The position numbers and the translations under genes are program-made. A stretch of DNA of 55,636 nt from Gammaproteobacteria bacterium (GTDB lineage Bacteria > Pseudomonadota > Gammaproteobacteria > UBA6429 > Thiohalophilaceae), in assembly GCA_024641475.1 (NCBI GenBank), contig JAHECZ010000013.1, positions 1 through 55,636 on the forward strand, in the 5' to 3' direction. Each line of letters opens with the position of its first letter. The first letter of the stretch is position 1. Positions 9,181 through 26,238 of this stretch are shown here, piece after piece. Below the pieces are notes generated by a model that was not told the origin of the DNA, ran no database searches, and saw nothing but the letters and a program-made list of their open reading frames with translations.

Positions 9181-9747
9181 TTATTGATCTTCTTCGGCAG
9201 GCAGTTTGTGAGCAATGCCTTGATGGCAATCAATACAGGTTTTTCCCTGCTCAATCGATCTCGCATGCTTTTTGCCCGCGGTTTTGTCCTGGTCTTCTAA
9301 TTTCATGAAATCAAAACGGTGACAATTGCGACATTCCCGGGAATCTGTCTCTTTCATGGTTTTCCATACCCGTTTAGCCATAGTCAAGCGGTGCGCATCA
9401 AATTTTTCTGGTGTGTCAACCGTACCCATCATCTTGTGATAGAGCTCATTACTGGCCTGGATCTTCCTGACCATTTTATGTCCCCAGGATTTAGGAACGT
9501 GACAGTCACTGCATATCGCGCGTACCCCGGTACGATTCGAATAATGAATTGTTTTTTTATACTCCTGATATACGTTGTCTTTCATCTCGTGACAGGAAAT
9601 ACAAAACTCTTCCGTGTTGGTGGCCTCGATCACAGTATGGAAGCCACCCCAGAAAATGATTCCGGCGATAAATCCAACAAGCAACAATAAACCCAGGGAA
9701 TATTTAGCTGTTGGGGAGCGAAGAAGTTGCCAGGTTTGTTTGATCAT
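9181..9747 (-). CDS. NapC/NirT-family tetrahaem quinol dehydrogenase (CymA-like)
   Basis: The 188-aa protein has one N-terminal membrane anchor (SLGLLLLVGFIAGIIFWGG) and four CXXCH sites (CISCH, CSDCH, CRNCH, CIDCH). The length is nearly the same as Shewanella CymA (187 aa). The family oxidises menaquinol/ubiquinol in the inner membrane and hands electrons to periplasmic reductases. There is no nap, nir or nrf gene nearby, and mtrAB lies opposite, so a CymA-like role is the best reading. An FNR box with a fitting -10 lies upstream (9834-9877), so oxygen-limited expression is expected. Confidence 0.88.
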   Translation of the reverse strand: MIKQTWQLLRSPTAKYSLGLLLLVGFIAGIIFWGGFHTVIEATNTEEFCISCHEMKDNVYQEYKKTIHYSNRTGVRAICSDCHVPKSWGHKMVRKIQASNELYHKMMGTVDTPEKFDAHRLTMAKRVWKTMKETDSRECRNCHRFDFMKLEDQDKTAGKKHARSIEQGKTCIDCHQGIAHKLPAEEDQ

Positions 9748-11035: not shown

Positions 11036-11752
11036 ATGAAGGAAATATCAACATTGAAGGCGCGCTATATTCAGAACCTGGCAGTTTTATTCACCATCAT
11101 CGCCGGTTTTACCAGCAATATCGCCTGGTCGGGTGTAATTGCCGGATCAGCGCATGATTTTACTCGTCCTACCGTCAATTTTACCGGCGGACAAATTTGT
11201 GTCGCCTGTCATACGCCGCACGGTGGCAATACGTCGGTGACAGACGCGCCGCTTTGGGCCCATACGTTATCAGCTACAACAAATTACTCGCTATATAGTA
11301 GTGGGACTTTGAATGCCGGAACATTGGCACAACCCAGTGGCGTATCGAAACTATGTCTGTCTTGCCATGATGGTACGGTGGCGCTGGATAGTTATATCGG
11401 TGGCGCAGGTACCTTTGGTGCGTTAACCGGAACCAAAGCAGTGGGTGCAACAGCTCAAGGTAGCCTGGCCAATGACCATCCAATTGGCTTTACCTTTGAT
11501 ACTGCCCTGGCCACCGCCGATGGCGCCTTGCATGATCCGGCCACCCGCAGCGTGACGATTGGTGCCGGTGGTACCCGTAGCAAAACCGGAACGGTTGCCA
11601 GTTTAATGTTGTTCAACGGCAAACTCGAATGTGCATCCTGCCACGACGTGCATAACAGCTTCACCGCCGCTGACGGTGTGGGTGTGGGTGCGCCACTGTT
11701 GCGCGTAAGCAAAGGTAGCAGTGCACTGTGTTTGACCTGCCATAACAAGTAA
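11036..11752 (+). CDS. Secreted tetrahaem c-type cytochrome (possible OmcE-type filament subunit)
   Basis: The ATG at 11036 is preferred, with GTGAGG just upstream; an in-frame GTG lies at 11024. The 238-aa protein has a signal peptide ending NIAWSG and four haem sites: CVACHTPHGG, CLSCHDGTVAL, CASCHDVH and CLTCHNK at the very C-terminus, with NDHPIGF between haems 2 and 3. The same module forms the N-terminal half of the dodecahaem at 16158 and, minus its first haem, the trihaem at 25732. The size, four haems and company of propeller and barrel genes recall the Geobacter OmcE nanowire locus. That assignment is from memory and unverified. It is the first gene of the FNR-driven operon, a position giving the most transcript. 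Confidence 0.8.
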   Translation: MKEISTLKARYIQNLAVLFTIIAGFTSNIAWSGVIAGSAHDFTRPTVNFTGGQICVACHTPHGGNTSVTDAPLWAHTLSATTNYSLYSSGTLNAGTLAQPSGVSKLCLSCHDGTVALDSYIGGAGTFGALTGTKAVGATAQGSLANDHPIGFTFDTALATADGALHDPATRSVTIGAGGTRSKTGTVASLMLFNGKLECASCHDVHNSFTAADGVGVGAPLLRVSKGSSALCLTCHNK

Positions 11753-11761
11753 GCAGTGTGT

Positions 11762-11849
11762 TGGTGTACGAAGTTACCGTCTGCCTTGGGGTTGTAACTC
11801 CTGGTCAGGCGGTAATTTCTGATGCAGTTAAGCGATAATCCGTACACCA
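11762..11849. repeat. Nested inverted repeats between operon genes 1 and 2
   Basis: An outer 9-bp stem (TGGTGTACG at 11762-11770 with CGTACACCA at 11841-11849) encloses an inner 10-bp stem (TTACCGTCTG at 11774-11783 with CAGGCGGTAA at 11806-11815, one G-U pair). No T-run follows, so it is not a classical terminator. It could stabilise or partly terminate the upstream cytochrome message. Confidence 0.6.
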
Positions 11850-11867
11850 GGCATAGCGAGTCAGCAG

Positions 11868-13046
11868 ATGATCATGAGTAAATATCCATCCGCCACCGGA
11901 TCGAGTGTTTCTACCTGTGGCAAGACAGTTTGTCGCTTGTTCCTAAGCAGTTTGCTACTCGCCATGGTATTTGCCATGACGAGTTGTGCCAGTGTTTCAG
12001 AAACGAAACTGGCACGGGCAACAGTATTTTACCCGCCACTGCCCAATCCGCCGCGTATCCAATATCTCACATCATTTTCCGGGCCTAATGATATTGTCGA
12101 GAATCGCAGTAATTTTCTGGATGCGCTGATCGGCAAGGAAAACGAAGCGACGGAATCGATCAAAAAACCTTATGGTGTCGCCATTCGTAACGGACGAATT
12201 TATGTCGCAGACACGCGGGGCGGTGGCTATGCGGTCTTTAATTTAGAGCAACGGCGTTTTGAAATCGTGCAAGGTTCCGGTGGTGGCAAGTTATTAAAGC
12301 CCATCAATATCAGTATCGATGTTGATGGCAATAAATACGTGACGGATACCGGGCGTGAGCAAGTGGTGGTATTCGACAAGGACGATCGCTACGTGCGCGC
12401 CTATGGCACCAGTGATGAATTCAAGCCCAGTGATGTGGCTGTCGATGGGGATCGACTCTACCTCACCGATCTGAAGCATCAGCAAATTCAGGTGCTGGAT
12501 AAAGCGAGCGGCAGTGTACTTTTTAAAATTGGCAAACCTGGATCAAAGGAAGGCGAATTTGTCTTCCCGACCAACCTTACTATCGGTCAAGATCATTATT
12601 TGTATGTCACTGACACCGGCAATTTCCGTATTCAGAAATTTACCCTTGATGGACAATATGTACGTAGTTTCGGTGGCATCGGTGCCAGCTTTGGACAATT
12701 TGCCCGACCCAAGGGCGTCGCGATGGATCACGCAGGGCGTCTGTATGTGGTCGATGCGGCATTCCAGAATATCCAGGTTATGGCGCCAGATGGTAAGTTA
12801 CTGATGTTTTTCGGTAGTGCCGGTGATGATCCGGAAAGCATGAACCTGCCAACGCAAGTGGTCATTGATTATGACAATCTGCAGTATTTCCAGGCGTATG
12901 CCGATCCCCGTTTTAAACTTGAATATGTCATTTTAGTGGCGAATCAATTCGGCAACAGTAAAGTAAATGTCTACGGCTTTGGCCGATTTGAGGGTGCTGA
13001 CTATAGTGCGGACGCACCTGCCGTTGCAGTGCCTGAGCAAAAATAA
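11868..13046 (+). CDS. NHL-repeat six-bladed beta-propeller lipoprotein
   Basis: The 392-aa precursor has a signal sequence ending FAMTSCASVS, a likely lipoprotein site. It then carries repeated NHL blades with the motif pattern KPYGVAI..GRIYVADT, KPINISID..GNKYVTDT, KPSDVAV..LYLTD, FPTNLTI..YLYVTDTGNFRIQKF and RPKGVAMD..GRLYVVDA. These propellers bind proteins or ligands and have no catalytic residues visible here. Two close relatives are encoded in the same operon (15109, 22435). Position before the barrel gene suggests a structural or assembly role in the outer-membrane conduit. ATG codons at 11868 and 11874 are both possible. Confidence 0.85.
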   Translation: MIMSKYPSATGSSVSTCGKTVCRLFLSSLLLAMVFAMTSCASVSETKLARATVFYPPLPNPPRIQYLTSFSGPNDIVENRSNFLDALIGKENEATESIKKPYGVAIRNGRIYVADTRGGGYAVFNLEQRRFEIVQGSGGGKLLKPINISIDVDGNKYVTDTGREQVVVFDKDDRYVRAYGTSDEFKPSDVAVDGDRLYLTDLKHQQIQVLDKASGSVLFKIGKPGSKEGEFVFPTNLTIGQDHYLYVTDTGNFRIQKFTLDGQYVRSFGGIGASFGQFARPKGVAMDHAGRLYVVDAAFQNIQVMAPDGKLLMFFGSAGDDPESMNLPTQVVIDYDNLQYFQAYADPRFKLEYVILVANQFGNSKVNVYGFGRFEGADYSADAPAVAVPEQK

Positions 13047-13069
13047 CGATAACGTGCAGCAGATTAAGC

Positions 13070-15109
13070 ATGAAAAAGTATTGCCGGCAAATAAAACCCT
13101 GTGGTGTGATCCTGAGTGTGATCACTCTACTGTTTGGTTTCAGCAATGTCGGTACTTGCGAAGATATTACGCCATTTCGTTTAACCGGTATTGATGGTTA
13201 CGTTGGGGTTAATTATCTTTCCGATTCGGAGCGACAGGATTCCGGTGGCAGCACCGCCAAAAATGCCATTACCACCGTGCAAGAAGAGATTTTCATCAAT
13301 ACTCACAGCTATATTTATCACCCCAATTTCCTCAAGATGGATTTGGGCGGTGGGCCATTGTTCGTGCAGGATCGGATCGAAGCGGGCGGTCTCGCCAATC
13401 GTGAATCCAGCGAGTTGTACAATTTTGCCGGGCGACTGAGTTTTCTCGAACAAAAATCCACGCCATTTGCTTTTTACTACGAGCATCTCAATCCCACCGT
13501 CACGACCAGTCTGACGCAAAGTTTCATTCAGACCAATGTTAAAAAAGGTGTAACGCTGACAGTACGTGAGCCTTTATCGCCGGTATTAATTACCGCCGAA
13601 GCTTTTCAGCAGCGCTCCACAGGTAGTAGTGCATCACTGGTTGTCGATGATAATCTTGATCAGGCATCCGTACGTGCGACATCAAACTTTGGTGCAGACA
13701 ATACAGGCCAGTTATTTTATCAGGTGAGTCGCTTGCAGACGGCCAGTGGTAACACCGGTTTCACGATTAACCCGTCGCAAGTGGATTCGCACAATGCGAG
13801 TTTCGATGGCCGTTTTTTGTTTGGAACAAGCAAACAATTTTCCTACAACCAGGTTATCAATGTCAGTTCATTATCTTTTTCGCGTCCGGATTATTTATTG
13901 GATCATAAGGATTTGCGCTTTTCACCGGATATACGCTGGCAGCATTCAGAAAACCTGAGTACGTTTTACAACTATAATTTGTACAAAAGCAAAGAAACCA
14001 GTAATGAAACGATATATGCCTCAGATGTGGAGGCAACCAACCAATCAGGTCGAGTTGGGGTGAATTACAGCGACGCCGATCGGTTATCCCTGGCTACAGA
14101 CGTTCATGCAACTGACGATCGTATTACCGGATGGAATGCGCGCAGCAAGGGGATTGGGGCACATGGAAATTATTTGCAGCCATGGGAAAATGTCACGCTG
14201 CGATTCGGTGCAGGCATTACCTACGATTCAAACGATCGCAATATAGTCGCATCCTACATCGCTGTAAAAGGTACTGCCCCTATCACGCTCGATGTTAATG
14301 TGGCGGTGACACTGCCTCACGATTTCATCGACATAAGTACGATACGTATTTGGGATACCGCGCATAACCAGGAATATACGGAGAATCCTCCGGTATCGTA
14401 TAAAGTGACAGTGATTGGTTCAAAAACTCAAATTGAGCGTCTTGATACTGTAACACTGCCGTCACAGGTGCTGGTGGACTATTCCGTACGAACCGGAGGC
14501 CCGGCGCAATATAGTTATACCTCTTTAAATCAAAACTATCAGGCCAGTCTGACGCTGTATCGTAATTACACGGTCTACGTGCGTTATCTCGTGGCAAGTT
14601 ATGATGTGGTAACCGGTACACCGACACTGCCGTTCAATTCTTCACATAACACCTTGTTTGGATTGCGCGTTGATCAACCCTTGTTCAATAGTATGACGAT
14701 AGGTGGTGAGGCAATGTTTGAGCGTCAGGATGAAGAGCTCGCACCCTATCGCCGCCAGAGTTACGATACTTATGTGCAGTTTCCAGTAGTCGCACGCATG
14801 AGTCCGCGATTTTCATTACGGCGCCAACTGGTGGATTACAGTAATTCGTCCGAAGACGTGGACCTCATCGGTTGGTCGATGCAAATCAATGCGCATCCAT
14901 GGAATTACACCAGTGTAACGGCTGAGGCGAGCTATGAGAAAGATACCGGTGGTAGTCTGCGGCGCGTCATCTTGCGAGATTCACTCGGTATCGAATGGCG
15001 CTTCCGGCAGCTGTCGCTGCGTGGTGATGCCCAGTATGTTCACGAGATGTTAGGTACCTATGATCGCAACCGTTCATTGATTAAATTCACGGCACGGCGG
15101 GACTTCTAA
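13070..15109 (+). CDS. Large outer-membrane beta-barrel of a porin-cytochrome conduit
   Basis: A 679-aa protein with a signal peptide ending NVGTCED. Long stretches of alternating polar/aromatic beta strands run from residue ~40 to the end, which is the Phe-terminated strand LIKFTARRDF typical of outer-membrane barrels. It shows no similarity to the MtrB gene at 6385 that I can see by eye, and it lacks the N-terminal CXXC. Flanked by propeller lipoproteins and multihaem genes, it is the probable pore of a second trans-outer-membrane wire, comparable in concept to Geobacter OmbB/ExtD-type porins. Its stop codon overlaps the next start (TAATG). Confidence 0.75.
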   Translation: MKKYCRQIKPCGVILSVITLLFGFSNVGTCEDITPFRLTGIDGYVGVNYLSDSERQDSGGSTAKNAITTVQEEIFINTHSYIYHPNFLKMDLGGGPLFVQDRIEAGGLANRESSELYNFAGRLSFLEQKSTPFAFYYEHLNPTVTTSLTQSFIQTNVKKGVTLTVREPLSPVLITAEAFQQRSTGSSASLVVDDNLDQASVRATSNFGADNTGQLFYQVSRLQTASGNTGFTINPSQVDSHNASFDGRFLFGTSKQFSYNQVINVSSLSFSRPDYLLDHKDLRFSPDIRWQHSENLSTFYNYNLYKSKETSNETIYASDVEATNQSGRVGVNYSDADRLSLATDVHATDDRITGWNARSKGIGAHGNYLQPWENVTLRFGAGITYDSNDRNIVASYIAVKGTAPITLDVNVAVTLPHDFIDISTIRIWDTAHNQEYTENPPVSYKVTVIGSKTQIERLDTVTLPSQVLVDYSVRTGGPAQYSYTSLNQNYQASLTLYRNYTVYVRYLVASYDVVTGTPTLPFNSSHNTLFGLRVDQPLFNSMTIGGEAMFERQDEELAPYRRQSYDTYVQFPVVARMSPRFSLRRQLVDYSNSSEDVDLIGWSMQINAHPWNYTSVTAEASYEKDTGGSLRRVILRDSLGIEWRFRQLSLRGDAQYVHEMLGTYDRNRSLIKFTARRDF

Positions 15110-16161
15110 TGCGTATAACTGTCATGTATGGAAGGATCGTCGCCAGTAGCGTAGTTCTTGCTGCACTATTACTCAGTAATGGTTGTGCTACAACAGCAAA
15201 CGATAGCAAAGTTCAACCTGCTGTCGCACGTGTCTGGCCGGAGGCTCCGAACGAACCACGTGTCCGCTATGTTAACGCATTTAGTAAGCCTGCCGATCTG
15301 GGTATCAGCAAAGGTTTCTTTGAACGCCTCGCCGAATTTTTTGTGGGCGAATCGGATGCGCATTTGGTGCGACCAATGGCGGTAGTGCAGACACAGGACG
15401 GTACCGTGTGTGTCGGAGATCCGGGCGCCAAGGCGGTGCAGTGTTTTGATCAGAAACGCGGCCGGTACCGTTTTATTCAGGCAGCGCAAGATCAACCCTT
15501 GCCCAGTCCGGTTGGTTTGGCGGTTGGGAATCACAATGAAGTGTATGTAGCAGATTCGGTCCTGGCAAAAATTCTGGTGATTGAGCCAAATGCAGAACTT
15601 GCCACACCGATATTACTGAATACTCAGCTAAAACAACCTGCTGGCCTGGTATTCGATCCTGTTGCGCAGCAATTATTGGTGGTGGATGCCGCCGCCCATC
15701 AGATCGTTATTTTCGGCCTGGATGGCCAGGAGCGAGCACGTATTGGCAAGCGTGGCAATGGCGACGGTGAATTTAATTATCCGACGCACATTAGCCGTGA
15801 TCAACAAGGAAGATTGTATGTGACCGACTCACTGAATTTCCGTATCCAGATATTGGATCAGGCCGGTAAATTTATCAGCAAATTTGGTCATAACGGGAAT
15901 GCCTTGGGCGATATGTCACGTCCCAAGGGCGTCGCGGTCGATCGTTTTGAGCATGTCTATGTGGTCGATGCGTTGTTTCATGCATTGCAAGTTTTCGACC
16001 CGCAGGGTGTATTTCTCCTGGATATCGGTGGGCAAGGGCAGGCGGCAGGTGAATTCTGGCTGCCAACCGGCTTGTTCATCAGCGACAATAACACAATTTA
16101 TATTGCCGACGCGCACAACCAGCGCGTACAAGTGCTGCAATATATTGGAGATAAACCATGA
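15109..16161 (+). CDS. NHL-repeat beta-propeller lipoprotein
   Basis: A 350-aa protein with a lipoprotein-like signal (LLLSNGCATTAND). NHL blades follow, for example RPMAVVQ..GTVCVGDP, SPVGLAV..EVYVADSV, YPTHISRD..RLYVTDSLNFRIQIL, RPKGVAVD..HVYVVDALFHALQVF and LPTGLFIS..TIYIADAHNQRVQVL. It is a paralogue of the propeller at 11868, with the same mature N-terminal pattern (WPEAPNEPRVRYVNAFSKP compared with LPNPPRIQYLTSFSGP). Start and stop overlap both neighbours (TAATG before, ATGATG after), so translation is coupled to the barrel and dodecahaem genes. Confidence 0.85.
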   Translation: MRITVMYGRIVASSVVLAALLLSNGCATTANDSKVQPAVARVWPEAPNEPRVRYVNAFSKPADLGISKGFFERLAEFFVGESDAHLVRPMAVVQTQDGTVCVGDPGAKAVQCFDQKRGRYRFIQAAQDQPLPSPVGLAVGNHNEVYVADSVLAKILVIEPNAELATPILLNTQLKQPAGLVFDPVAQQLLVVDAAAHQIVIFGLDGQERARIGKRGNGDGEFNYPTHISRDQQGRLYVTDSLNFRIQILDQAGKFISKFGHNGNALGDMSRPKGVAVDRFEHVYVVDALFHALQVFDPQGVFLLDIGGQGQAAGEFWLPTGLFISDNNTIYIADAHNQRVQVLQYIGDKP

Positions 16162-17984
16162 TGCGACGTAACTATCAATTTATTGTTACAGCTATTTTTG
16201 CGATGTTGGCCTCTGCAGCGTCAGCAGCCATCAGTACCAGCAAACATAATCTGTCAGTGAGTGGCACGGGCGCCGTCAAGGCCAGCAGTGAATCGCAGAT
16301 CTGTATTTTCTGTCATACCCCGCATAATGCTGCACCGAATAGCCCATTATGGAATCGACGCAGTAATACCAATGCTTATACACCGTATAGCAGCTCCACT
16401 GCGATAGCGACACCTGGTCAGCCAACCGGATCGTCGATACTCTGTTTGAGTTGCCATGATGGGACTATTGCACTGGGTGATGTGCTGAATTCCAGCACGA
16501 CGATCAACATGGTGGGCGGTGTAACAACAATGCCTGTTGGTGCCGGGCGTTTGGGTACGGATCTGTCCGACGATCATCCAATCTCTTTCAATTTCACCAC
16601 GACACTCGCCAATCAGCGTGGTGAGTTGGTCAATCCAACCACGCTTACTGGTGCGGTTAAGCTGGATAAGACCGGTCAGCTACAATGTACCAGTTGTCAT
16701 AATCCCCATGACGACAGCAATGGTAAATTTTTAGTAATGGCGAATACGCGTTCGGCGTTATGCCAGACTTGCCATATTAAAAATTTCTGGACGGCATCCT
16801 CGCACAGCACATCAAATGCAACCTGGAATGGCGTTGCACCGGATCCGTGGCCCAGTAGCAGTCTGACCACGGTGGCGAATAATGCCTGTTTGAATTGTCA
16901 CAAGCCGCATAGTGCCGGTGGACGTGCACGCTTGCTCAATTCCGCAGTGGAAGAAACCAATTGTTCGGTTTGCCATAACAGTCATGTCGCGCAGAAAGAC
17001 ATCATGACCGAGTTTAATAAATTTTCACATCATCCGATTACCAGCACGAGCGGTGTGCATGATCCCAAAGAACCGGCAGTGGTGGCCGCACGCCATGTGG
17101 AATGTTATGACTGTCATAATCCGCATGCGGCAAAATCGGCGGCGACCGGTAATCTGGCCGGACCGCTCACCGGTGTGCGTGGGGTGAATGCCGGTGGCAC
17201 GGAAGTCAATCCGGTAACACGTGAATATGAAGTGTGCTTCCGTTGTCACGCCGATAGCACCAACAAACCGGCGGCACGCACGGCGCGTGTGCTGGTGCAA
17301 ACCAATGTGCGGCTGGAATTCGCCACGGCAAATCCGTCTTATCATCCAATTGAAGGTGCAGGCAAGAATGCCAACGTACCAAGTCTAGCGGGTGCCCCGG
17401 CGGGACTGAGTACTTCAAGTACAATCAATTGTACCGATTGTCATAATAACGATGGCGGGCCCAAGGCCGGTGCAACCGGTCCGAACGGACCACATGGGTC
17501 ACAGTATGCACCGTTGTTAGTGCGTCAATACATAACAGCCGACCCGACGGTAGAAAGCCCGGCGACGTATGCACTTTGTTATAACTGTCATAACCGCAGC
17601 AGTATCCTCGGTAATCAAAGTTTTCCACGCCACAGTTTCCATATCGGCGGTGGCACGCGTATGGGCGGCGGCGGTGGTGGTGGCATGGGCGGCGGTGGAG
17701 GTGGCGGCGGCATGGCGACCGTCAATGCACCGTGCAATAATTGTCACGATCCACACGGGATCAGTGTGACGCAGGGGAACAGTACCAATAACAGTAAATT
17801 GATCAATTTCAATACCGGGCAGGTTAGTCCGAGTTCTTCGAATATTCTGCGTTACGAATCAACAGGGACATTTTCCGGTCGGTGCTATTTGACCTGTCAC
17901 GGCATGAACCACAACCCCTGCACTTATGGTGCTGCCGGTGGTGCCGGTGGTGGCATGTGCGGTGGCATGGGCCCGGCGATGTGA
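16158..17984 (+). CDS. Dodecahaem c-type cytochrome (11 CXXCH plus one CX3CH) with Gly-rich inserts
   Basis: A 608-aa exported protein (signal ending ASAASAAIS) with CIFCH, CLSCH, CTSCH, CQTCH, CLNCH, CSVCH, CYDCH, CFRCH, CTDCH, CYNCH, CNNCH and finally CYLTCH, a CX3CH site. Haems 1-4 repeat the tetrahaem module of the 11036 gene (CIFCHTPH, CLSCHDGTIAL, DDHPISF, CTSCHNPH). Residues ~497-520 form a Met/Gly-only stretch, and the C-terminus is also Gly/Met-rich (GGMCGGMGPAM). It is probably the electron carrier working with the barrel at 13070, either within or outside it. The start overlaps the stop of the propeller gene (ATGA). Confidence 0.85.
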   Translation: MMRRNYQFIVTAIFAMLASAASAAISTSKHNLSVSGTGAVKASSESQICIFCHTPHNAAPNSPLWNRRSNTNAYTPYSSSTAIATPGQPTGSSILCLSCHDGTIALGDVLNSSTTINMVGGVTTMPVGAGRLGTDLSDDHPISFNFTTTLANQRGELVNPTTLTGAVKLDKTGQLQCTSCHNPHDDSNGKFLVMANTRSALCQTCHIKNFWTASSHSTSNATWNGVAPDPWPSSSLTTVANNACLNCHKPHSAGGRARLLNSAVEETNCSVCHNSHVAQKDIMTEFNKFSHHPITSTSGVHDPKEPAVVAARHVECYDCHNPHAAKSAATGNLAGPLTGVRGVNAGGTEVNPVTREYEVCFRCHADSTNKPAARTARVLVQTNVRLEFATANPSYHPIEGAGKNANVPSLAGAPAGLSTSSTINCTDCHNNDGGPKAGATGPNGPHGSQYAPLLVRQYITADPTVESPATYALCYNCHNRSSILGNQSFPRHSFHIGGGTRMGGGGGGGMGGGGGGGGMATVNAPCNNCHDPHGISVTQGNSTNNSKLINFNTGQVSPSSSNILRYESTGTFSGRCYLTCHGMNHNPCTYGAAGGAGGGMCGGMGPAM

Positions 17985-18077
17985 ATGGAGTTGATGTATG
18001 TCAGTATCTGACTGCGAGGGAGTCGCTACAGTGTCAGCAAACTATGTTGCGAGTGTGTGTGTCAGGAAAAATAAAAC

Positions 18078-19094
18078 ATGCTACAAATACGCATACTAGT
18101 TGGATTTATCAGTAGCTTGATGATAGCGACAGGTGTGGTTGTCGCGGCGGAATCAAATAAAGAACAAGGTAAAAATGTTATGACGCCGGCACCAAGCGAA
18201 GCAACTTTACTGAAAGCACCGCAGCGAATTCCCGCGCTGGTGGCTGAAGGTAAGCTCGCACTCACACAAGTACCGAATCCGCATTGGCGACAGGATGCCT
18301 GCAGCGCCTGTCATAACGGTAAACCCGTGCGTGATAATCTCAAATTACGTGACAAGGATATCAATCGCATGTGTAATACCTGTCATGGTGCGATTACCGA
18401 TCACAGTTTTATTCATCCCACCGGCATGCCGGTTCCCAAAGCCATGCAGTCACGCCTGACACCATCGTTTGCACAGGCCGTCAAGCGTGGTAGTGGCGCG
18501 ATGAGTTGTATCACCTGTCATGATCTGCCAATGACGTGTCGTGAAGAGCGTCGCAATGAGCGTGGATTAAACCCGCGTTTTTTCCGTGAAGGGCCGTATC
18601 CGGATCGTAGTGCCCTGTGTTATCGCTGTCACGATCCGAAACAATACATGCGCTTGAATCCGCACGATCAGATAGATAAGGAAGGTAACTTGCGCAAGTC
18701 AACCTGCCAGATCTGCCATGATCAGGTACCGGATGTGACTTCTGCACGCAGTATTGCCGACGTGGACTTTGTTGTGACAGGGGATTTGGTGGCGATGTGC
18801 GCCAATTGCCATCCGGTCAAACCGCATCCTGGTGGATTCTCATTTTCAAACGGTGGTGGCCTGCCCAATCATTTGCGTATACCGTCAGATCGCGTTGCGC
18901 AACGTCGTGAGCAGATGCAAAAGGAAAATGATATTGTTTTGCCGCTGGATCCGAATACCGGCAAGGTATTTTGCGGCACCTGTCATAACCCGCATGCACG
19001 CGGGGTGATCCGTGTGAAGGCGGCGGCCAAAGGGGCGGGCGAGAAGCAACGTCTGCGTATGCAGGAAATTTGTGAGAATTGCCATGACAAATAA
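18078..19094 (+). CDS. Periplasmic octahaem c-type cytochrome
   Basis: The 338-aa precursor has a signal peptide (cleavage near TGVVVAAES) and eight CXXCH sites: CSACH, CNTCH, CITCH, CYRCH, CQICH, CANCH, CGTCH and CENCH, the last three residues from the C-terminus. There is no membrane anchor or lipobox. Two features fit the doubled-CXXCH multihaem families: HNGKPVRDNLKLRDK after haem 1 and a GTCHNPHARG motif at haem 7. It probably relays electrons in the periplasm between the inner-membrane bc module downstream and the barrel-associated cytochromes upstream. Confidence 0.85.
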   Translation: MLQIRILVGFISSLMIATGVVVAAESNKEQGKNVMTPAPSEATLLKAPQRIPALVAEGKLALTQVPNPHWRQDACSACHNGKPVRDNLKLRDKDINRMCNTCHGAITDHSFIHPTGMPVPKAMQSRLTPSFAQAVKRGSGAMSCITCHDLPMTCREERRNERGLNPRFFREGPYPDRSALCYRCHDPKQYMRLNPHDQIDKEGNLRKSTCQICHDQVPDVTSARSIADVDFVVTGDLVAMCANCHPVKPHPGGFSFSNGGGLPNHLRIPSDRVAQRREQMQKENDIVLPLDPNTGKVFCGTCHNPHARGVIRVKAAAKGAGEKQRLRMQEICENCHDK

Positions 19095-19127
19095 ACAGCG
19101 ATGCCGGCGTGGCGCGAGGTATATAAC

Positions 19128-20258
19128 ATGCTAACGATACGTTGGGTGCTGCTGTTGTGTGGATGGCTGAGTGTGAATGCGCTGGCGGCAGAAACAGCCG
19201 AACACTTGCCGGCACAGGCATTCCAGGATTCTGAAGGTTGTCTGTTATGCCATAAATATCCGCGCATGGCGCGGATTACCGAAGATGGTGTGTTGCGTAA
19301 ATATTTTATACAGCCCGAGGTATTCGCACGTACCGTACACCGTAATGTGCCTTGTCGCGATTGTCACACCGAGATCAACGAGCTGCCGCATAAGCCGGTC
19401 AAGATCGGCGTGACCTGCAATACCGAATGCCACTCGGTGAAGAATCCGGCCACGGGCAAACCTTTCAGTCATAAACCGATCTATGATGCCTTCCGCGAAA
19501 GTGTGCATGGCCGCAGTAAAGTCGCCGAAGGCACCGATGCGGACAAACCCTACTGTGTCACCTGTCACACCAATCCACTATATAATCCGCAAGAAGCAAT
19601 GCCGCCACCGAAAATTACCGATCGGTGTGTACTGTGTCATGAAGATCGCACCTTTGTGAATCGCTGGTATAACCATACAAGCCGGCGTATCCGTGAAGTG
19701 CGCCGCACACCCGAACAGATCGTGGCGCTGTGTTCTACCTGTCATGATGATCAGCGCGTAATCGAGCGTCATCTGGCGAAGGCCAAGGCCGAAGGCAGAG
19801 AGATGGGCCGCAAATACCCGCTGGCAGTGGAATCCTATTATGAAAGTTTCCATGGCAAGATGGTGAAATACGGTTTTAATGCGGCAGCCAACTGTCTGGA
19901 CTGTCATGCCGATCAGGTTAACTATTACAAGAGTGTGCATGAGATCCGGCCCTCCCGCGATCCTGCCTCGCCGGTGTCGAAAGAGCGGCGTGTCAATACC
20001 TGCAAGCGTTGTCATACCTATGCCGATCAAAATTATGCACAACTCGATCCGCACCCCACCAGCACGCGTGAAGGCAATATGTTCCGCTATTTTGCCGAAA
20101 AGATTTACAACATCGTCGGTTATGTGGTGATCGCCGCATTATTAGGGCTATCGTTATTTGAAACCATCGGGCGGCGCCGCGATGGCGTGGGCTGGCGTCT
20201 GACACATGGATCGTCGTGGTGGCGCAAGAGCAAACGTGGACGCAAACGAATCATTTAA
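19128..20258 (+). CDS. Membrane-anchored octahaem c-type cytochrome subunit of a Cbc-type quinol oxidoreductase
   Basis: The start at 19128 (GCGAGG upstream, signal ending NALAAE) is preferred over the frame opening at 19101. The 376-aa protein has seven CXXCH sites (CLLCH, CRDCH, CVTCH, CVLCH, CSTCH, CLDCH, CKRCH) and one CX3CH (CNTECH). A C-terminal membrane helix (NIVGYVVIAALLGLSLF) is followed by a basic cytoplasmic tail (KSKRGRKRII). The next gene encodes a dihaem cytochrome b. A multihaem c with a C-terminal anchor plus a FdnI/HydC-like b subunit is the design of Geobacter Cbc inner-membrane quinone oxidoreductases. Confidence 0.82.
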   Translation: MLTIRWVLLLCGWLSVNALAAETAEHLPAQAFQDSEGCLLCHKYPRMARITEDGVLRKYFIQPEVFARTVHRNVPCRDCHTEINELPHKPVKIGVTCNTECHSVKNPATGKPFSHKPIYDAFRESVHGRSKVAEGTDADKPYCVTCHTNPLYNPQEAMPPPKITDRCVLCHEDRTFVNRWYNHTSRRIREVRRTPEQIVALCSTCHDDQRVIERHLAKAKAEGREMGRKYPLAVESYYESFHGKMVKYGFNAAANCLDCHADQVNYYKSVHEIRPSRDPASPVSKERRVNTCKRCHTYADQNYAQLDPHPTSTREGNMFRYFAEKIYNIVGYVVIAALLGLSLFETIGRRRDGVGWRLTHGSSWWRKSKRGRKRII

Positions 20259-20304
20259 GGTGGATTGATGTGATCCGCGTTATATATATCAGAGGTGAAA
20301 TGCA

Positions 20305-21255
20305 ATGAAGCTGTCGAAAGAAGCGCACGACGTATTGGAAACCTCCATGCGGCAAAATCATGTCAGTCATAAGGATCGCGCAGAAATCAATGCGGTGGTC
20401 GAGATGCTGCCTGAGGACAGAGTATTACTCTACAAGAATGTCGTGTCGAATCCACTGGGTGATATCTATCGCTATTCGATCCATATCCGGATTCAGCACA
20501 TGCTGACGTTTGTAACTTTTCTGACCCTGGCGTTCACCGGGTTGCCGATCCATTTTTTTGAAGCGTTCTGGGCGGAACCCTTTAATAATTTGTTAGGTGG
20601 TGTCGGCATTACGCGTGTGATTCATCGTACCATCGCTGTGGTCATGATTTTCTCAATGATCTATCACGTGTTTACGATCACTTTCGGCAGTCTGGCGCGT
20701 ATTCGCGCCAAAAAATTCGATATCCGTCGCACCATCATTCCATTGTGGAAAGATATCCGCGACTTTCGTGCCGATTTACACTATTTCGCCGGCAAACGTA
20801 CGCAGCGTCCGGAAATGGACAAATTCAATTACAAACAGAAACTTCACTATTTCGCGGCGGCGTTTGGTAACGGCGTGATGGTGTTATCAGGTTCGTCGTT
20901 TTTGTTTCCGGATATCTGGGCGATGATCTTGCCTGCCAGTATCGCCTCGCACTGGCAGGAGCTGATGCGGCTGTCGCATCCGCACGAAGCCTTGCTGGCG
21001 TTATTAGTTATCGCCTTCTGGCACTGGTACAACGTGCATCTGGCGCCGGGTCGCTTCCCGATGCAGTGGACATTCCTGACCGGCAAGATCACCCGCGAGC
21101 ATCAGATGGAAGAGCACTTTCTGGAATACTTGCGTAATCTGGTCGAATTGCCGGCCGAACGCAAGGCGCTACAGGATGTGCTCGAAAGTCGCGAGTTGGT
21201 GCCTGAAAGCTTATCGATGACCGGCGAACCCGCGCCCGGTCATAAAGGCGCCTAG
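20305..21255 (+). CDS. Dihaem cytochrome b subunit (FdnI/HydC/b561-like)
   Basis: A 316-aa integral membrane protein with about four transmembrane helices (around residues 58-80, 105-128, 183-205 and 228-250). Candidate haem-b histidines are IRIQHML in helix 1, RVIHRT and MIYHVF in helix 2, and HPHEALL and FWHWYNVH in helix 4. The pattern is that of the formate dehydrogenase gamma/Ni-hydrogenase cytochrome b family, which exchanges electrons with the quinone pool. It most likely takes electrons from quinol and passes them to the octahaem subunit encoded just upstream. Confidence 0.85.
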   Translation: MKLSKEAHDVLETSMRQNHVSHKDRAEINAVVEMLPEDRVLLYKNVVSNPLGDIYRYSIHIRIQHMLTFVTFLTLAFTGLPIHFFEAFWAEPFNNLLGGVGITRVIHRTIAVVMIFSMIYHVFTITFGSLARIRAKKFDIRRTIIPLWKDIRDFRADLHYFAGKRTQRPEMDKFNYKQKLHYFAAAFGNGVMVLSGSSFLFPDIWAMILPASIASHWQELMRLSHPHEALLALLVIAFWHWYNVHLAPGRFPMQWTFLTGKITREHQMEEHFLEYLRNLVELPAERKALQDVLESRELVPESLSMTGEPAPGHKGA

Positions 21256-21257
21256 CC

Positions 21258-21380
21258 ATGATTCTGCCGTTAACACGCTGGCAAAAGATTATCGCCTACA
21301 CGGCGCTAATCATCGTGGGTTTGTGGACTGTATTCGGGATTATTGCGATCTGGTTAATGCTGACCGATCCGCACGGATGA
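21258..21380 (+). CDS. 40-aa single-helix membrane microprotein
   Basis: An ATG three nt after the stop of the cytochrome b gene opens a 40-codon frame: a short basic N-terminus (LTRWQK), one hydrophobic helix of ~23 residues, then LTDPHG. The next gene starts 15 nt after its stop and has GGGAG before its ATG. The tight spacing and membrane helix suggest a small accessory subunit of the bc complex. I know no named family for it. Confidence 0.6.
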   Translation: MILPLTRWQKIIAYTALIIVGLWTVFGIIAIWLMLTDPHG

Positions 21381-21395
21381 TCTGGGAGAATAACG

Positions 21396-22463
21396 ATGCA
21401 TGACATGACAACAGCCAATACGATCATCATCGTGATTGCGGTGCTGCTGTTCTTTTTCCTGGGTATCGCCATCATGGTTATCATGGACCATAAAGCCAAG
21501 CTGCCGGGCGGCTTTACTTCCAATCCATTCAGTGTCGTCGGCATGCGGCGTGATCACCCGGTGATCGCCTTTATTACCACGATTATTTTGTTTGGTATTA
21601 TCGGCAGTCTGCTGTTTGTGATGATCGCCACGGTAACCGGTTACTTCGATATTTTCAAACCCGCCAAAACACCGGCGTTACTGAGTCGGTTGAGTGAAGG
21701 CCGTACCGCCGAACGCTTGCGGCATTTTCATAATTTACCGGCTGAAGATATCACCACGCTGGGCGCCAAGAACGTGTGTTTCTCCTGTCACGGTGATCTG
21801 CCGCACTCCAAGGAACCGATGATCCGCACGTTACTGAATATGCACACCCAGTTTGTCGGTTGCATGACCTGTCATGTCAATGACAAGAAAGTCGCCGAAG
21901 CGTCGTTGAAATTGCGCTGGTTGAATTTCACCGGTATCGCCACGACCGGCAAGCCGTTTGGTACGCAGGTGGATCCGGATACCGGCTACTTGCTGGCGAC
22001 CGATGACATGTATTCGAAAATCGTGCCGTATATGCAGGTCGATGGCCAGGAGAAATTAGTCGAGATCACCATGGACGATCCTGAGGCGCGTGAATTTGTA
22101 AAAATAAAGGATAAACTATCTGATCATGATCGCGATGGCGTCAAGAAAACCTTCCACCGTCTGGTGATGCCCAAGGGCCGCTTCTGTACGCGTTGCCACA
22201 CCGATGAAACCAAAAGTTATGTGCCGTTCCGCGAACTGGGTTTTTCGGATCGTCGTACGCGTGACATCACCAATTTAAATATCATTGGTCTGGTCGAGAA
22301 GTACAAGAATTTCTATATGCCGACGCTGATGCGTTCGGAAAAATCATCAGCGTCAACCCCTGCGGATCGACCATCCACCAAGGATGACACAGATATTCAA
22401 AAAGATCCGCGTACCTGGTGGAAGGAAACCTACGATGCGCCAGCAGGTACAAATAAAAAATAA
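21396..22463 (+). CDS. Membrane-anchored trihaem c-type cytochrome
   Basis: A 355-aa protein with two N-terminal transmembrane helices (residues ~9-30 and ~56-84) and a large periplasmic domain with three CXXCH sites (CFSCHGDLPHSKEP, CMTCHVND, CTRCHTDE). No signal cleavage is evident. Several His residues near the haems (HFHNL, LNMHTQ, FHRLV) could be second ligands. It is encoded directly after the cytochrome b and microprotein genes and is probably a further subunit of the same quinol-linked complex. I do not recognise a named family. Confidence 0.8.
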   Translation: MHDMTTANTIIIVIAVLLFFFLGIAIMVIMDHKAKLPGGFTSNPFSVVGMRRDHPVIAFITTIILFGIIGSLLFVMIATVTGYFDIFKPAKTPALLSRLSEGRTAERLRHFHNLPAEDITTLGAKNVCFSCHGDLPHSKEPMIRTLLNMHTQFVGCMTCHVNDKKVAEASLKLRWLNFTGIATTGKPFGTQVDPDTGYLLATDDMYSKIVPYMQVDGQEKLVEITMDDPEAREFVKIKDKLSDHDRDGVKKTFHRLVMPKGRFCTRCHTDETKSYVPFRELGFSDRRTRDITNLNIIGLVEKYKNFYMPTLMRSEKSSASTPADRPSTKDDTDIQKDPRTWWKETYDAPAGTNKK

Positions 22464-23376
22464 ATTTGTCAGCGCTTGGCGCCGCGGATGGCTCGCGCTA
22501 ATCTGCGGCGTTATCTCCTCGCTTGCCTGTGCCGAAATACCGTTGGCGCAAGTGCATACGGTGGTGACGCTGTCTGAAGGATTGGCGCTACCCTCCGATG
22601 TCGCGATAGGCTCCAACGGTCGTGTCTATGTGGTCGATAGCGGCAATCACCGCATCGCGGTGTTCGAGCGCAATGGCAAACGCATCACGACCTTTGCCAG
22701 CCGTGGCAATGGCCCCGGTCAGTTGCGTGATCCCGTCGGTATCGGTATCGATCACGCCGGTCTGGTGTACGTCGCCGATAAAGGCAATCGTCGTATTCAA
22801 ATTTTCAGCGCTGAAGGCAAGTTTGTGCGTTCTCTGCCAGTCAAGGTCGATGGGAAGGACATCGCGCCGATCGATGTGGCCATCGATGCATCCGGTAAAA
22901 CGATCTATGTCACCGGTAACACCAATCATAAAGTCATGGCCTTCAGTCCCACCGGTAAATTGTTATCGCAATGGGGTGGCGAAGGCTTGATGCGCGGGGA
23001 GTTTCGTTATCCCGCGACGATCAGCATTGGTAAGGATGGCCGCGTCTATGTCGTCGATGTGTTGAATACCCGCGTGCAGGCACGCGATGCCCGCGGCCAG
23101 ATTTTTCTAATCAGTGAATGGGGTGTATTACCCGGCCAATTATTCCGACCCAAGGGTGTCGTGCTGGATCATAAGGGACGTGTTTATATCAGCGACAGTT
23201 ACATGGATATGGTGCAGGTATTCAATACGGATTACAGCTTCGCGCATGTACTGGGCTCAGGTGATAAACCCCATACCTTTACGTCGCCGGCCGGCATGGC
23301 GATAGATAACGATAATCGCCTGTACGTCACCGAAATGTTAAAGAATCGCGTCAGTGTGGTTGAGTTGCCGCCATGA
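22435..23376 (+). CDS. NHL-repeat beta-propeller, periplasmic
   Basis: The start at 22435 (GAAGGAAA upstream, 29-nt overlap with the trihaem gene) gives a signal peptide ending SSLACAE; the frame is open from 22384. This 313-aa protein carries six NHL blades, for example LPSDVAIG..RVYVVDSGNHRIAVF, DPVGIGID..LVYVADKGNRRIQIF, YPATISIG..RVYVVDVLNTRVQAR and RPKGVVLD..RVYISDSYMDMVQVF. Unlike the two propellers upstream it has no convincing lipobox, so it is probably soluble. It is the third propeller of the operon and is coupled to the 18-haem gene that follows (ATGA overlap). Confidence 0.82.
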   Translation: MRQQVQIKNKFVSAWRRGWLALICGVISSLACAEIPLAQVHTVVTLSEGLALPSDVAIGSNGRVYVVDSGNHRIAVFERNGKRITTFASRGNGPGQLRDPVGIGIDHAGLVYVADKGNRRIQIFSAEGKFVRSLPVKVDGKDIAPIDVAIDASGKTIYVTGNTNHKVMAFSPTGKLLSQWGGEGLMRGEFRYPATISIGKDGRVYVVDVLNTRVQARDARGQIFLISEWGVLPGQLFRPKGVVLDHKGRVYISDSYMDMVQVFNTDYSFAHVLGSGDKPHTFTSPAGMAIDNDNRLYVTEMLKNRVSVVELPP

Positions 23377-25727
23377 TCAATGGTGTCTCAAGCAACGCAT
23401 GGCGAACAGCAGCAAGCGTGTTGCTGGGGTTTTGCAGTATGCCAGTGGTGTTTGCTGTAAATGATGTGGCGGAAAATCGCGAATGCGCCACCTGCCACAT
23501 CATGTGGCTGAAGGATTTCAAACGCACCGATGTCACGACCCTGATTCCGTTTGATGCCAAACCCGTCGTCGACACCGGCAAGCAGGATGTCGCCAGTACT
23601 GAACGCATGTGTTTTTCCTGTCACGATGGCTTTATGCTGGATTCGCGGCAGGTATGGCGTAGTGGCGCGCACGGTCATCCGGTTGGTGTGAAGCCGTCGG
23701 ATAAAGTCAGGATACCCACATCAAAAGGCAAAACCATTTTCCCACTGAATGAAGATGGCAAACTCTATTGCGGTACCTGTCACAGCGCGCATGGGGTGGA
23801 TTGGAAGCAGGAAGAGTCACCGGTGTTTTTGCGCGTCAAGAATGTCGATTCCAGTTTGTGTTTCGCCTGCCATCTGGATCGCAGTACCGGACCGGCCGAA
23901 GGTAATCATCCGGTCTTTAAAAAGCTTGCCAATCCTCCGGAAGTCTTGCGTGAACACGGTTCGCACTTCGGTCGTGGCGGTACGGTGATCTGTCAATCCT
24001 GTCATACACCACACGGTTCCACACAAACCAAGTTGCTGGTGATGAGCAAGGAGAATTCGGAATTATGCGGCACCTGTCATGCCGACAAATATCGGATTCG
24101 CCATACCAAACATGACATGGCGGTGATGGCACCGGAGGCCCACAATAGTAAAAATCAAACGGTGACCGAATCGGGGCCATGCGGTGTGTGTCACTTACCG
24201 CATAAAGCCAAAGGCACGGCATTGTGGGCGCGCGATCTGTATCCAGGTGTCGATCCGGTGTCGGCACGTTGCCTGAGTTGCCACAACGAAGAAGGACTTG
24301 CGAAGAAAAAAACCGTGGGCAAGCACAGTCACCCGATCAACATTGCGGTATCCAAAGCGGGCATCACCGCCACACGCGAAGGCTGGACCAGTCAGTTTCC
24401 GTTGCCCGATGCCAGGACTGTGTTACAACGTTTACCGTTATATGATGACAAAGGCATGCGCACCGACAGCGGCGGTAAAGTCGGTTGTGCCAGTTGCCAT
24501 GATCCGCATCGCTGGTCCGCTGACGATAATCGAACCGATAAAGAAAAAGCCGCAACGGATCCCAAAGAGATTGAAGGCGATGGGCACAGCAGTTTTCTGC
24601 GGCTGCCCTTCGATGCAAATTCCGCACTGTGTGCCAACTGCCATGTCGACAAAAGCGCCGTGCAATTCAGCAAACATAATGCCGCGTTCATGCCGGACGT
24701 AAAGTCAGACGCACAAACCAAGACAGCGTCAGTTGAAAATAAAGGTGTGTGTGCCACCTGCCATATGCCGCATAATGCCAAAGGCGATTTTTTATGGGCA
24801 CGTGAACGTGGTGCCGATACCGGTGAATCCGGTGCACTGTGTACCAGTTGTCATCGCAAGGATGGATTGGCGGATAAAAAAATCATCGGTAGCCATAGTC
24901 ATCCGTTCAATCGTCAGCTGGCGAGCGGCATGCAACCGCACCTGCCGCTATTCAAAAAGAATGGAGATGGTAGTGGTGGTCAGATCGAATGTGCGACCTG
25001 TCATGATCCGCATCAATGGAATCCAGCTGATCCGCAGAATCACGACGGTGCCAATAAATCCGTTGAAGGAGATGCCAGCACCAGTTTCTTGCGGCGGCAA
25101 GCTGCGGGTCGTGCTGAGTTGTGCGTCGAATGTCATCGTGAACAAAGCCGGGTGCGTGGAACAGACCACGATTTGACCGTAATCGCTCCGCAAACCAAAA
25201 ATGCCAAGGGCGATACCGCGCTGCAATCCGGTGTCTGCGGACAATGTCATAACGTACATAACGCCGAAGGTGATTTGCGGTTGTGGGCGCGACAATTGGG
25301 TAGCGGTCAGGATATCGATGAAAAACTGTGTCGCAGTTGCCATGCCGATGGTCAGGTCGCCGCGGCGAAAGTCCCACCCGATCGCCAAGGCAAACATCCG
25401 GGTAAGGTCACTGCCTGGTCACCGGAAATTCGCGCACGCTTCAATCCCAAGGGCGCACATGGTATTCGTGTCTATGGACCCGATGGCTTACCGGCGAAGA
25501 CCGGGGTGATTACCTGTTTGAGTTGTCACAATCCCCATCAATGGAGTGCAAAATCTGAGAAAGAAGGCACAGGGAAGAATACCGAAGGCGACGTGCGTAG
25601 CAGTTTCTTGCGTGTGAGCGATACCGAATCGATCTTATGCGCGGATTGTCATGGACTTGATGGATTATTCCGCTACAAATATTTTCACGGTAAATCCGCA
25701 CACTCGGATTATCCGTTGTTCCGATAA
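23373..25727 (+). CDS. Octadecahaem (18-haem) c-type cytochrome
   Basis: A 784-aa exported protein (signal ending PVVFAVND) with 18 CXXCH sites and no anchor. It is built from repeats: a CxxCHDPHxW motif (CASCHDPHRW, CATCHDPHQW, CLSCHNPHQW) followed by EGDxxSSFLR and LCxxCH, and a CGVCHLPHKAKG/CATCHMPHNAKG/CGQCHNVHNAEG motif followed by LWAR. At least three such ~200-residue units are visible. Large modular proteins of this kind act as periplasmic or surface electron reservoirs or wires. It ends the FNR operon; its stop lies only 4 nt from that of the convergent trihaem gene. Confidence 0.87.
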   Translation: MINGVSSNAWRTAASVLLGFCSMPVVFAVNDVAENRECATCHIMWLKDFKRTDVTTLIPFDAKPVVDTGKQDVASTERMCFSCHDGFMLDSRQVWRSGAHGHPVGVKPSDKVRIPTSKGKTIFPLNEDGKLYCGTCHSAHGVDWKQEESPVFLRVKNVDSSLCFACHLDRSTGPAEGNHPVFKKLANPPEVLREHGSHFGRGGTVICQSCHTPHGSTQTKLLVMSKENSELCGTCHADKYRIRHTKHDMAVMAPEAHNSKNQTVTESGPCGVCHLPHKAKGTALWARDLYPGVDPVSARCLSCHNEEGLAKKKTVGKHSHPINIAVSKAGITATREGWTSQFPLPDARTVLQRLPLYDDKGMRTDSGGKVGCASCHDPHRWSADDNRTDKEKAATDPKEIEGDGHSSFLRLPFDANSALCANCHVDKSAVQFSKHNAAFMPDVKSDAQTKTASVENKGVCATCHMPHNAKGDFLWARERGADTGESGALCTSCHRKDGLADKKIIGSHSHPFNRQLASGMQPHLPLFKKNGDGSGGQIECATCHDPHQWNPADPQNHDGANKSVEGDASTSFLRRQAAGRAELCVECHREQSRVRGTDHDLTVIAPQTKNAKGDTALQSGVCGQCHNVHNAEGDLRLWARQLGSGQDIDEKLCRSCHADGQVAAAKVPPDRQGKHPGKVTAWSPEIRARFNPKGAHGIRVYGPDGLPAKTGVITCLSCHNPHQWSAKSEKEGTGKNTEGDVRSSFLRVSDTESILCADCHGLDGLFRYKYFHGKSAHSDYPLFR

Positions 25728-25731
25728 CGCG

Positions 25732-26238
25732 TTATTTATTATGACAGGCCATGCACAGCGCTTTATCGCCGTGACCGGTGGTTAATTCTTTTGTTGCGGT
25801 GCAACTGTTGGATGGCAGCGCGGATGTAACCGGTGAAGTATTCGCAGCCAATAGGGAATCTGATTTCACTTGATGACAGGACACGCAACTGACCTGGCCA
25901 TTCACGAGCTTGATATTTGGATGCAGCGCAGTGCGCGAGCGATAACTTTGCGGGTCTTTGCGGACAGAATCATCATATACCATGCCAACGGGATGATTGA
26001 GCGTTTGCGAGCCGCGGATTTGCAGCGGACTGCCACTGCGACGTAGCGTGATATGCGACGCACTGGAACCGTCATGACATTGCATACAACCTTGCGCCAC
26101 ATTGTCGATCGCCTGTGTGACCGGTGTTTCGTTGCCAACGATAAACGCACGAAATTGATCGGCAAAATCCGCGGATGCCGGCATCGCGCAGCCAAGCATT
26201 AACAGTAATACACTCAGTGCAGTAGTAACCAAACGCAT
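25732..26238 (-). CDS. Secreted trihaem c-type cytochrome under riboswitch control
   Basis: A 168-aa protein with a signal peptide ending MPASADF (an LGC earlier in it is an unlikely lipobox) and three CXXCH sites: CMQCHDGSSA, CVSCHQ and CMACHNK at the C-terminus, with NHPVGMVY between the first two. It corresponds to haems 2-4 of the tetrahaem module at 11036 with the first haem lost. Its 5' leader carries a GEMM-I riboswitch (26247-26332), whose 3' end reaches the GGAG ribosome-binding site. It faces the big operon and overlaps its transcript end. A surface or periplasmic role tuned by cyclic-di-GMP is the likely reading. Confidence 0.85.
   Translation of the reverse strand: MRLVTTALSVLLLMLGCAMPASADFADQFRAFIVGNETPVTQAIDNVAQGCMQCHDGSSASHITLRRSGSPLQIRGSQTLNHPVGMVYDDSVRKDPQSYRSRTALHPNIKLVNGQVSCVSCHQVKSDSLLAANTSPVTSALPSNSCTATKELTTGHGDKALCMACHNK

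Follow-up and report, generated by a model that had tools for sequence, protein, structure and literature searches.

By gene content, a close described counterpart of the gene cluster reported here is Uet (undecahaem electron transfer), encoded by uetABCDEFGHIJ in Tenderiales and Gallionella, which comprises, according to the available parts of the papers on it, an extracellular tetrahaem cytochrome (UetA), a barrel (UetC), NHL proteins (UetHI), and an 11- to 12-haem cytochrome (UetJ) (PMC10734462, PMC12575090). A second point of reference is OmcE, the nanowire subunit of Geobacter sulfurreducens, one haem of which is ligated by a histidine of the neighbouring subunit, as stated in the accessible portions of two reviews (PMC12307469, PMC12954529). 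We analyzed a window of 55,636 bases (bases 1 to 55636 of a 65,622-base contig) from a gammaproteobacterial draft genome of 3.16 Mb that is 97.4% complete. Between positions 11036 and 25727 lie twelve tightly packed genes, with intergenic spacing of -80 to +115 bp, whose products carry 4 + 12 + 8 + 8 + 3 + 18 = 53 haem-c sites, two of them being CX3CH. The earlier note on this DNA had listed a barrel, three NHL propellers, 53 haem-c sites, a cytochrome b, and a 40-amino-acid (aa) peptide in this run, and all of these are indeed open frames on the + strand. Below, L-numbers denote the loci and G-numbers the genomes that were compared.

Judged by sequence comparison, the first gene product is homologous to the OmcE nanowire subunit over its full length, as is the head of the fifth. 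The first, A4h (11036 to 11752; 4 CXXCH), is a tetrahaem cytochrome c of the OmcE family with a signal-like N-terminus, UetA-like by gene content, and is our proposed filament subunit. The fifth, J12h (16158 to 17984; 11 CXXCH and 1 CX3CH), is a dodecahaem cytochrome, UetJ-like by gene content, with an OmcE-like head (residues 1 to 208) and an eight-haem tail (residues 209 to 608). A4h matched the OmcE chain 7tfs over nearly its whole length (8.6e-19), which lends homology support to an earlier guess that the run encodes a filament subunit; it also matched PDB chain 9yuq, a "putative multiheme cytochrome c," over most of its length (1.6e-21). Profile positions 7 to 209 of J12h matched OmcE at 2.1e-40. 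The specificity of these matches was assessed for 10 multihaem proteins of the window with 200 shuffles that kept every haem motif in place. The resulting z values were 13.1 for A4h and 19.9 for J12h, the latter coming entirely from the head (the tail gave -0.4), and the eight other multihaem proteins, the dihaem protein at 8530 to 9141 being left aside, gave -1.6 to 4.1. A structural model of J12h (mean pLDDT 84.8) matched 7tfs in Foldseek (2.3e-9, 4.3 A over 202 columns) and in VIA (Z 14.1, 2.5 A over 174 residues, 42% identity). The 208-residue head stops at CHxK, the same endpoint as in A4h and OmcE, and the eight-haem tail begins there.

All four distal histidine positions of OmcE have conserved counterparts in A4h and in the J12h heads, and eight histidines of A4h are invariant in 37/37 aligned rows. 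In J12h, 28 histidines are conserved in at least 55 of 57 rows and 12 bis-His haems need only 24, which leaves ligands to spare for a neighbour. Each of the 57 aligned dodecahaems has at least one CX3CH, and the two cysteines and the histidine of that site are invariant. In a midpoint-rooted tree of 155 sequences (79 heads, 74 A4h-type proteins, and 2 PDB chains, with four duplicate loci and frames of more than 640 aa dropped), the J and A labels needed two changes each, the heads were nested within the A4h type, and 9yuq formed a long branch.

The twelve genes fall into two separable modules: an outer-membrane module (tetrahaem, NHL, barrel, NHL, and dodecahaem), which occurs in many phyla, and a quinone module, which was seen joined to the outer module in Gammaproteobacteria only and has relatives in Nitrospirota. 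The full order A4h-NHL1-BAR-NHL2-J12h-K8h-L8hTM-cytochrome b-peptide-M3h-NHL3-N18h recurs in the same family in L021 (A4h cut at the contig end), L025, L028 (cytochrome b frame broken), and G018 (L023 plus L037). It is also found in other gammaproteobacterial families, whole in L121 and in L123, the latter from a single-contig genome, and largely kept in L120, which carries an inserted second quinone module, and in L125, where the locus is cut. In L027 the dodecahaem gene is absent from its place, although a dodecahaem occurs elsewhere in that genome, and A4h and NHL1 are broken; the broken frames in L027 and L028 may reflect either decay or draft sequence errors.

A search of genome contigs with J12h gave at least 559 relatives, of which the best 80, mostly from metagenome-assembled genomes, were examined as loci (L032 to L111). 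Going by their record titles, these came from Gammaproteobacteria, Nitrospirota, Verrucomicrobia, Planctomycetota, Bacteroidetes, Ignavibacteria, Calditrichota, Zixibacteria, Acidobacteria, Deltaproteobacteria, and others; four (L033, L035, L037, and L061) are from same-family genomes counted separately. Automated calls placed near J12h a tetrahaem protein (best match A4h or J12h) in 62 of the 80, NHL1 in 64, a barrel-sized frame in 63, and NHL2 in 71. All four of A4h, NHL1, barrel, and NHL2 were present in 50/80, a lower bound because contigs end and because NHL2 was overlooked in L062 and L088; the presence of J12h itself in all 80 proves nothing, since the loci were fetched by it. K8h was present in 7/80 and an orthologous cytochrome b in 5/80, all five being titled Gammaproteobacteria. 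When 45 of the 80 source genomes were searched whole, a cytochrome b of this kind was found in six at E 1e-40, one of them at the orthologous level. An extra multihaem protein, often with five haems, lies between NHL1 and the barrel in 46/80 loci (for example, L043 and L049), with a lipobox-like site in 26/37 of the five-haem proteins of other phyla; it is absent from the window and its compared gammaproteobacterial relatives. Within the order of a Comamonadaceae genome, J12h was found in 2/300 genomes, the centre included.

The remaining members of the outer module are two propellers and a barrel. NHL1 (11868 to 13046; PF01436, 2.3e-20) has a lipobox-like site and is a probable lipoprotein, and NHL2 (15109 to 16161; PF01436, 4.1e-26) has no such site by a simple pattern; by that pattern the site occurs in 54/70 copies of NHL1, the window's included, and in 42/78 copies of NHL2, the window's not among them. 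A fusion of NHL2 to J12h, considered for the long J12h frames of L053, L062, L088, and L125, was rejected: tblastn gives NHL2 a gene of its own, which lies in a different frame in L062, L088, and L125 and on the opposite strand in L053, and the extra J12h N-termini are shadow frames. By its model (mean pLDDT 90, pTM 0.76, 54 rows), BAR (13070 to 15109) is a large outer-membrane barrel, with 28 long strands by manual count and a beta domain inserted at about residues 396 to 474, and its matches point to no particular function. It had no Pfam or NCBIfam family at E 0.01, and the model resembles outer-membrane barrels generally, among them TonB-dependent receptors, ushers, LptD, and MtrB. The usher FimD (351 residues, 9.2 A) and FhuA led the ranking by Z, both at 15.3, with MtrB at 13.5; in Foldseek, MtrB had the highest query-normalised TM-score (0.43) among the 50 matches listed. 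Like MtrCAB and MtoAB, the cluster has a large barrel with a multihaem partner, and the model of BAR aligns to MtrB over 483 residues. However, the alignment is at 7.2 A and 11% identity, BAR has no PF11854 match, and the true MtrAB is a separate set encoded upstream, a decahaem protein at 5352 to 6311 and a barrel at 6316 to 8469 (PF11854, 2.6e-132), whose presence the earlier note had correctly recognised.

The gene content of the outer module, a tetrahaem protein, a barrel, two NHL proteins, and an 11- or 12-haem protein in one cluster, is that of the published Uet complex as set out in the available text (PMC10734462, PMC12575090), so this half of the unit is not, as had been supposed, undescribed. 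The two differ, as far as that text describes Uet, in that the window's cluster lacks a PPIase (UetB) and three small trihaem proteins (UetDEG) and has K8h and the quinone module in addition. No PPIase was found among the Pfam matches of 12 cluster proteins (the 40-aa peptide left out), and the only 3-haem proteins are the membrane-bound M3h and O3h. O3h (25732 to 26238, - strand; 3 CXXCH), a trihaem protein with a lipobox-like site, is probably a thirteenth, accessory member, as suggested by its relatives in L023, L120, L121, and L123, which follow the 24-haem gene on that gene's strand. No record named Tenderia was among the best 80 of the at least 559 J12h relatives, and the likeness to Uet rests on gene content. 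The undecahaem protein of Tenderia itself is named as Tel_16545 in PMC5371394. An undecahaem cytochrome of another organism reportedly lies in a cytochrome-rich cluster named Occ (2020). That the Occ-cluster organism has an undecahaem protein is recorded in the accessible part of one paper (PMC13264449). The Occ cluster may belong to the same family as the outer half of our unit, and may contain further parts of the unit as well.

The quinone module begins with K8h (18078 to 19094; 8 CXXCH), an octahaem protein with a signal-like N-terminus that in relatives stands either after J12h or before L8hTM. L8hTM (19101 to 20258) is an octahaem protein with a C-terminal membrane anchor; it shares 59 to 69% identity with same-family orthologues, and its 7 CXXCH and 1 CX3CH are found in 9/9 uncut orthologues. 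The cytochrome b (20305 to 21255; PF01292, 1.5e-10), the proposed quinone site, shows 68 to 74% identity to 9 orthologues, with 11 histidines invariant in 10/10 rows. Next to it is a 40-aa single-helix membrane peptide (21258 to 21380), conserved in position and sequence (44 to 55% identity to 9 aligned orthologues, with L026 and L123 added by tblastn) and not found in L135 and L136 of the Nitrospirota. The module continues with M3h (21396 to 22463), a protein with three haem-c sites and two N-terminal hydrophobic segments, and NHL3 (22435 to 23376; PF01436, 2.7e-33), whose frame opens at 22384 and whose ATG at 22435 precedes a signal-like stretch. It ends with N18h (23373 to 25727; 18 CXXCH), which has a signal-like N-terminus and 24 haems in some relatives.

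By architecture, this module resembles bc quinol oxidoreductases of the CbcBA and CbcL type in having a cytochrome b with an anchored multihaem c, and differs from them in its peptide, trihaem protein, NHL protein, and 18- to 24-haem protein. CbcBA corresponds to GSU0593/GSU0594. A role of CbcBA near -0.2 V is described in the available text of one paper (PMC12307469). Like the PCC3 and PCC4 clusters, which as far as their description was available combine a porin and large multihaem proteins with a putative dihaem-b protein of the inner membrane (He et al. 2017, PMC5566968), the window has all these kinds of parts in one cluster; its cytochrome b, however, has neither the WX3HX13H nor the SGXXG motif given there.

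The cytochrome b was found in 8/274 genomes of a class draw, own included, and in 1/349 of a phylum draw, that one being the source genome itself. In a draw of the phylum Nitrospirota, 5/198 genomes, the centre included, matched it at 1e-60. Two of the Nitrospirota loci, L163 and L164, have K8h-L8hTM-cytochrome b-M3h-N24h with a cytochrome b 65% identical to ours and no NHL3 seen; in L135, L136, L165, and L166 the cytochrome b is 51 to 54% identical, and L135, L165, and L166 have NHL3 and the 18-haem protein. L163 and L164 group, with weak support, with the gammaproteobacterial cytochrome b clade, and the J12h of L032 (titled Nitrospinota) falls among gammaproteobacterial heads; these placements may reflect transfer between Gammaproteobacteria and Nitrospirota or errors of binning. 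The module in L164 is followed by a five-haem protein that is partly J12h-like (35% over 234 aa) and by three small trihaem cytochromes recalling UetDEG. A paralogous second quinone module, with a cytochrome b about 30% identical, adjoins the first in L027, L044/L122, L120, L126, and L135, on the opposite strand in some.

We lean, by a little, toward reading the whole as a quinone-coupled conduit across the entire envelope, with a cytochrome nanowire at its far end. The haem proteins form a chain along which electrons probably move between the inner membrane and an external conducting filament. What bears on it directly is the gene content, the conservation of order, the homology of A4h and the J12h head to OmcE, and the large barrel model; the earlier note's idea of a quinol-to-outside path in one unit is consistent with these, the parts lying in one gene run beside MtrAB and their order being conserved in other genomes. 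Electrons would pass from quinone to the cytochrome b, the anchored octahaem protein, and the membrane trihaem protein, and from there across the periplasm through the 18-haem and octahaem proteins. The dodecahaem protein, in or at the barrel and helped by the propeller lipoproteins, would take them across the outer membrane, its tail presumably within the barrel, and its OmcE-like head would dock end-on to a filament formed by the tetrahaem protein. The direction could be outward, as respiration, or inward, as uptake. More tentatively, and with the chances in our view rather against it than for it, J12h may be the missing anchor of OmcE-type nanowires: a filament subunit whose C-terminal face continues into an eight-haem wire through the barrel. 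The free N-terminal face of the head (His30) would then ligate the last haem of the filament, and His216 would replace the ligand normally given by the next subunit. An anchor, filament, and barrel set of this kind would wire nanowires to cells in many phyla, with a quinone module of its own in some Gammaproteobacteria.

Several observations weigh against the conduit reading. In the tree of heads and A4h-type proteins, OmcE falls beside the J12h heads, with modest support, rather than with A4h, and A4h is therefore not established as the OmcE orthologue. A4h also has a fifth conserved histidine outside the haem motifs, H76 (35/37 rows), where OmcE has arginine, so that the subunits may not need to share a ligand; in OmcS, the shared ligand lies near the N-terminus. 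Run on its own genome, the A4h family profile matched not only A4h and the J12h head but also, at a weaker level, O3h in its C-terminal half (6.6e-10); some of the similarity therefore extends beyond nanowire subunits. The modules also come apart. Among 37 same-family genomes, own included, cytochrome b at the orthologous level occurs in 12 and J12h at full level in 9 (two weak J12h matches, in G011 and G031, are left out, and several genomes are incomplete); both occur in 7/37, J12h only in 2 (G004 and G030), and cytochrome b only in 5 (G007, G012, G021, G028, and G033). By Z, moreover, BAR is as close to usher and TonB-dependent barrels as to MtrB, and the J12h model aligns only weakly to MtrA (Z 7.0, 4.9 A, with an aligned range overlapping the head); an MtrA-like tail was not used as evidence.

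The place of FimD at the head of the BAR ranking, above MtrB, and the beta domain inserted in the barrel model speak for another reading, in which the barrel and propellers would secrete and assemble the tetrahaem filament instead of conducting electrons, much as has been proposed for the Osc proteins of Geobacter OmcS, with the dodecahaem protein as filament starter or cap. The companion proteins of OmcS have been assigned roles in folding, secretion, and filament shape (Shen et al. 2025, as related in the available part of PMC13194489). Yet a 12-haem protein exceeds the needs of an export chaperone, and by query-normalised TM-score MtrB is the best of the listed matches to BAR, and we regard this explanation as unlikely; the barrel-sized frames near J12h in 63/80 loci are compatible with either. 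Conduit and export or shaping roles may both be true at once. Far less probable still is a periplasmic respiratory complex with no extracellular partner, in which the barrel would be an ordinary porin. Consistent with such a complex, the quinone module is found with neither barrel nor dodecahaem protein in L022, L024, L026, and L031 (cut), whose genomes have no J12h at 1e-60, and in Nitrospirota. However, in L022, L024, and L026 the 18-haem gene is followed by one for a tetrahaem protein of 280 to 320 aa, 33% identical to the J12h head, the three forming one tree group, so a filament-type protein is retained there too; and J12h is repeatedly accompanied, in different phyla, by an OmcE-family tetrahaem protein and a barrel.

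An inward path has a better claim, and we would put it only somewhat short of an even chance: the same chain would feed the quinone pool with electrons drawn from Fe(II), minerals, or partner cells and so serve CO2 fixation, a role proposed for Uet. The source genome encodes a RuBisCO large-chain family protein (1.4e-138), the family also including RuBisCO-like proteins. The accessible text on Uet proposes this complex for cathode-oxidising Tenderiales and for the iron oxidiser Gallionella (PMC10734462, PMC12575090), and CbcBA is predicted, in the part of the source available, to run in reverse in Seep-SRB2 (PMC10553843). Nothing in the sequence, though, fixes a direction, and Mtr/Mto homologues are themselves proposed, in the available part of that work, to be bidirectional (PMC10734462). 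For the conduit as such, in either direction, the unit belongs with the known porin-cytochrome conduits, since its outer half matches Uet in gene content apart from the PPIase and three trihaem proteins. The joined quinone module is an addition, and the new point is the OmcE-like head of the dodecahaem protein. The open literature searched, which did not extend to the primary Uet (2022) and Occ (2020) papers, yielded no description of the 12-gene unit. An OmcE-like dodecahaem head went unmentioned in the accessible parts of the literature consulted, the main nanowire and Uet papers lying outside that coverage, and we make no claim that it is unpublished.

The cluster had also been called mobile-like. 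Neither a transposase nor an integrase turned up among 40 window proteins searched, nor did a tRNA in the window, which speaks against a mobile element; the distribution is patchy, though, and the cluster was not found in G001, the single same-genus genome compared. In G001 the two flanks are on separate contigs and what adjoins them toward the cluster is unrelated, so a clean empty site cannot be demonstrated there. A gene-tree check for an origin in Desulfuromonadota gave no sign of one among the few such genomes compared: the gammaproteobacterial dodecahaem heads nearest the window's belong to a supported set of 14 rows without Desulfuromonadota, and the nearest nongammaproteobacterial quinone modules found are those of Nitrospirota. 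Promoter-like sites numbered 19 versus 24.8 expected and terminator-like sites 21 versus 17.8 expected (standard deviation 4.3), and neither is therefore in excess.

Upstream of the cluster, MtrAB is accompanied by a NapC-type tetrahaem protein (9181 to 9747) and a dihaem protein (8530 to 9141) on the other strand, the whole set spanning 5352 to 9747. This set is kept in G001 (contig C37), where the cluster was not found, and in L036 the NapC and dihaem genes lie directly 5' of A4h. A pentahaem protein with repeated CBB3-type domains lies upstream of mtrA (3694 to 4842), and similar DNA is repeated on contig C12 (1 to 608) of G000. Downstream of the cluster, positions 33131 to 43074 encode a DUF6701/laminin-G protein, three pilin-like N_methyl proteins (one match falling just under the cutoff), T2SSF, and an MshEN-type ATPase, a set that resembles an MSHA-type pilus locus.

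It is an open question how cytochrome nanowires outside the cell are built, attached to the outer membrane, and charged; the available text of one paper (PMC12307469) describes their assembly and secretion as under active investigation. The fusion of a subunit to a connector suggests how filaments might be wired to cells. If the dodecahaem protein is indeed a nanowire subunit joined to a wire through the barrel, structural work and mutation could test the wiring question directly, in a system that many phyla possess. With the quinone module that the gammaproteobacterial version brings in addition, a single gene run could be moved, as a candidate complete conduit, into a laboratory host.

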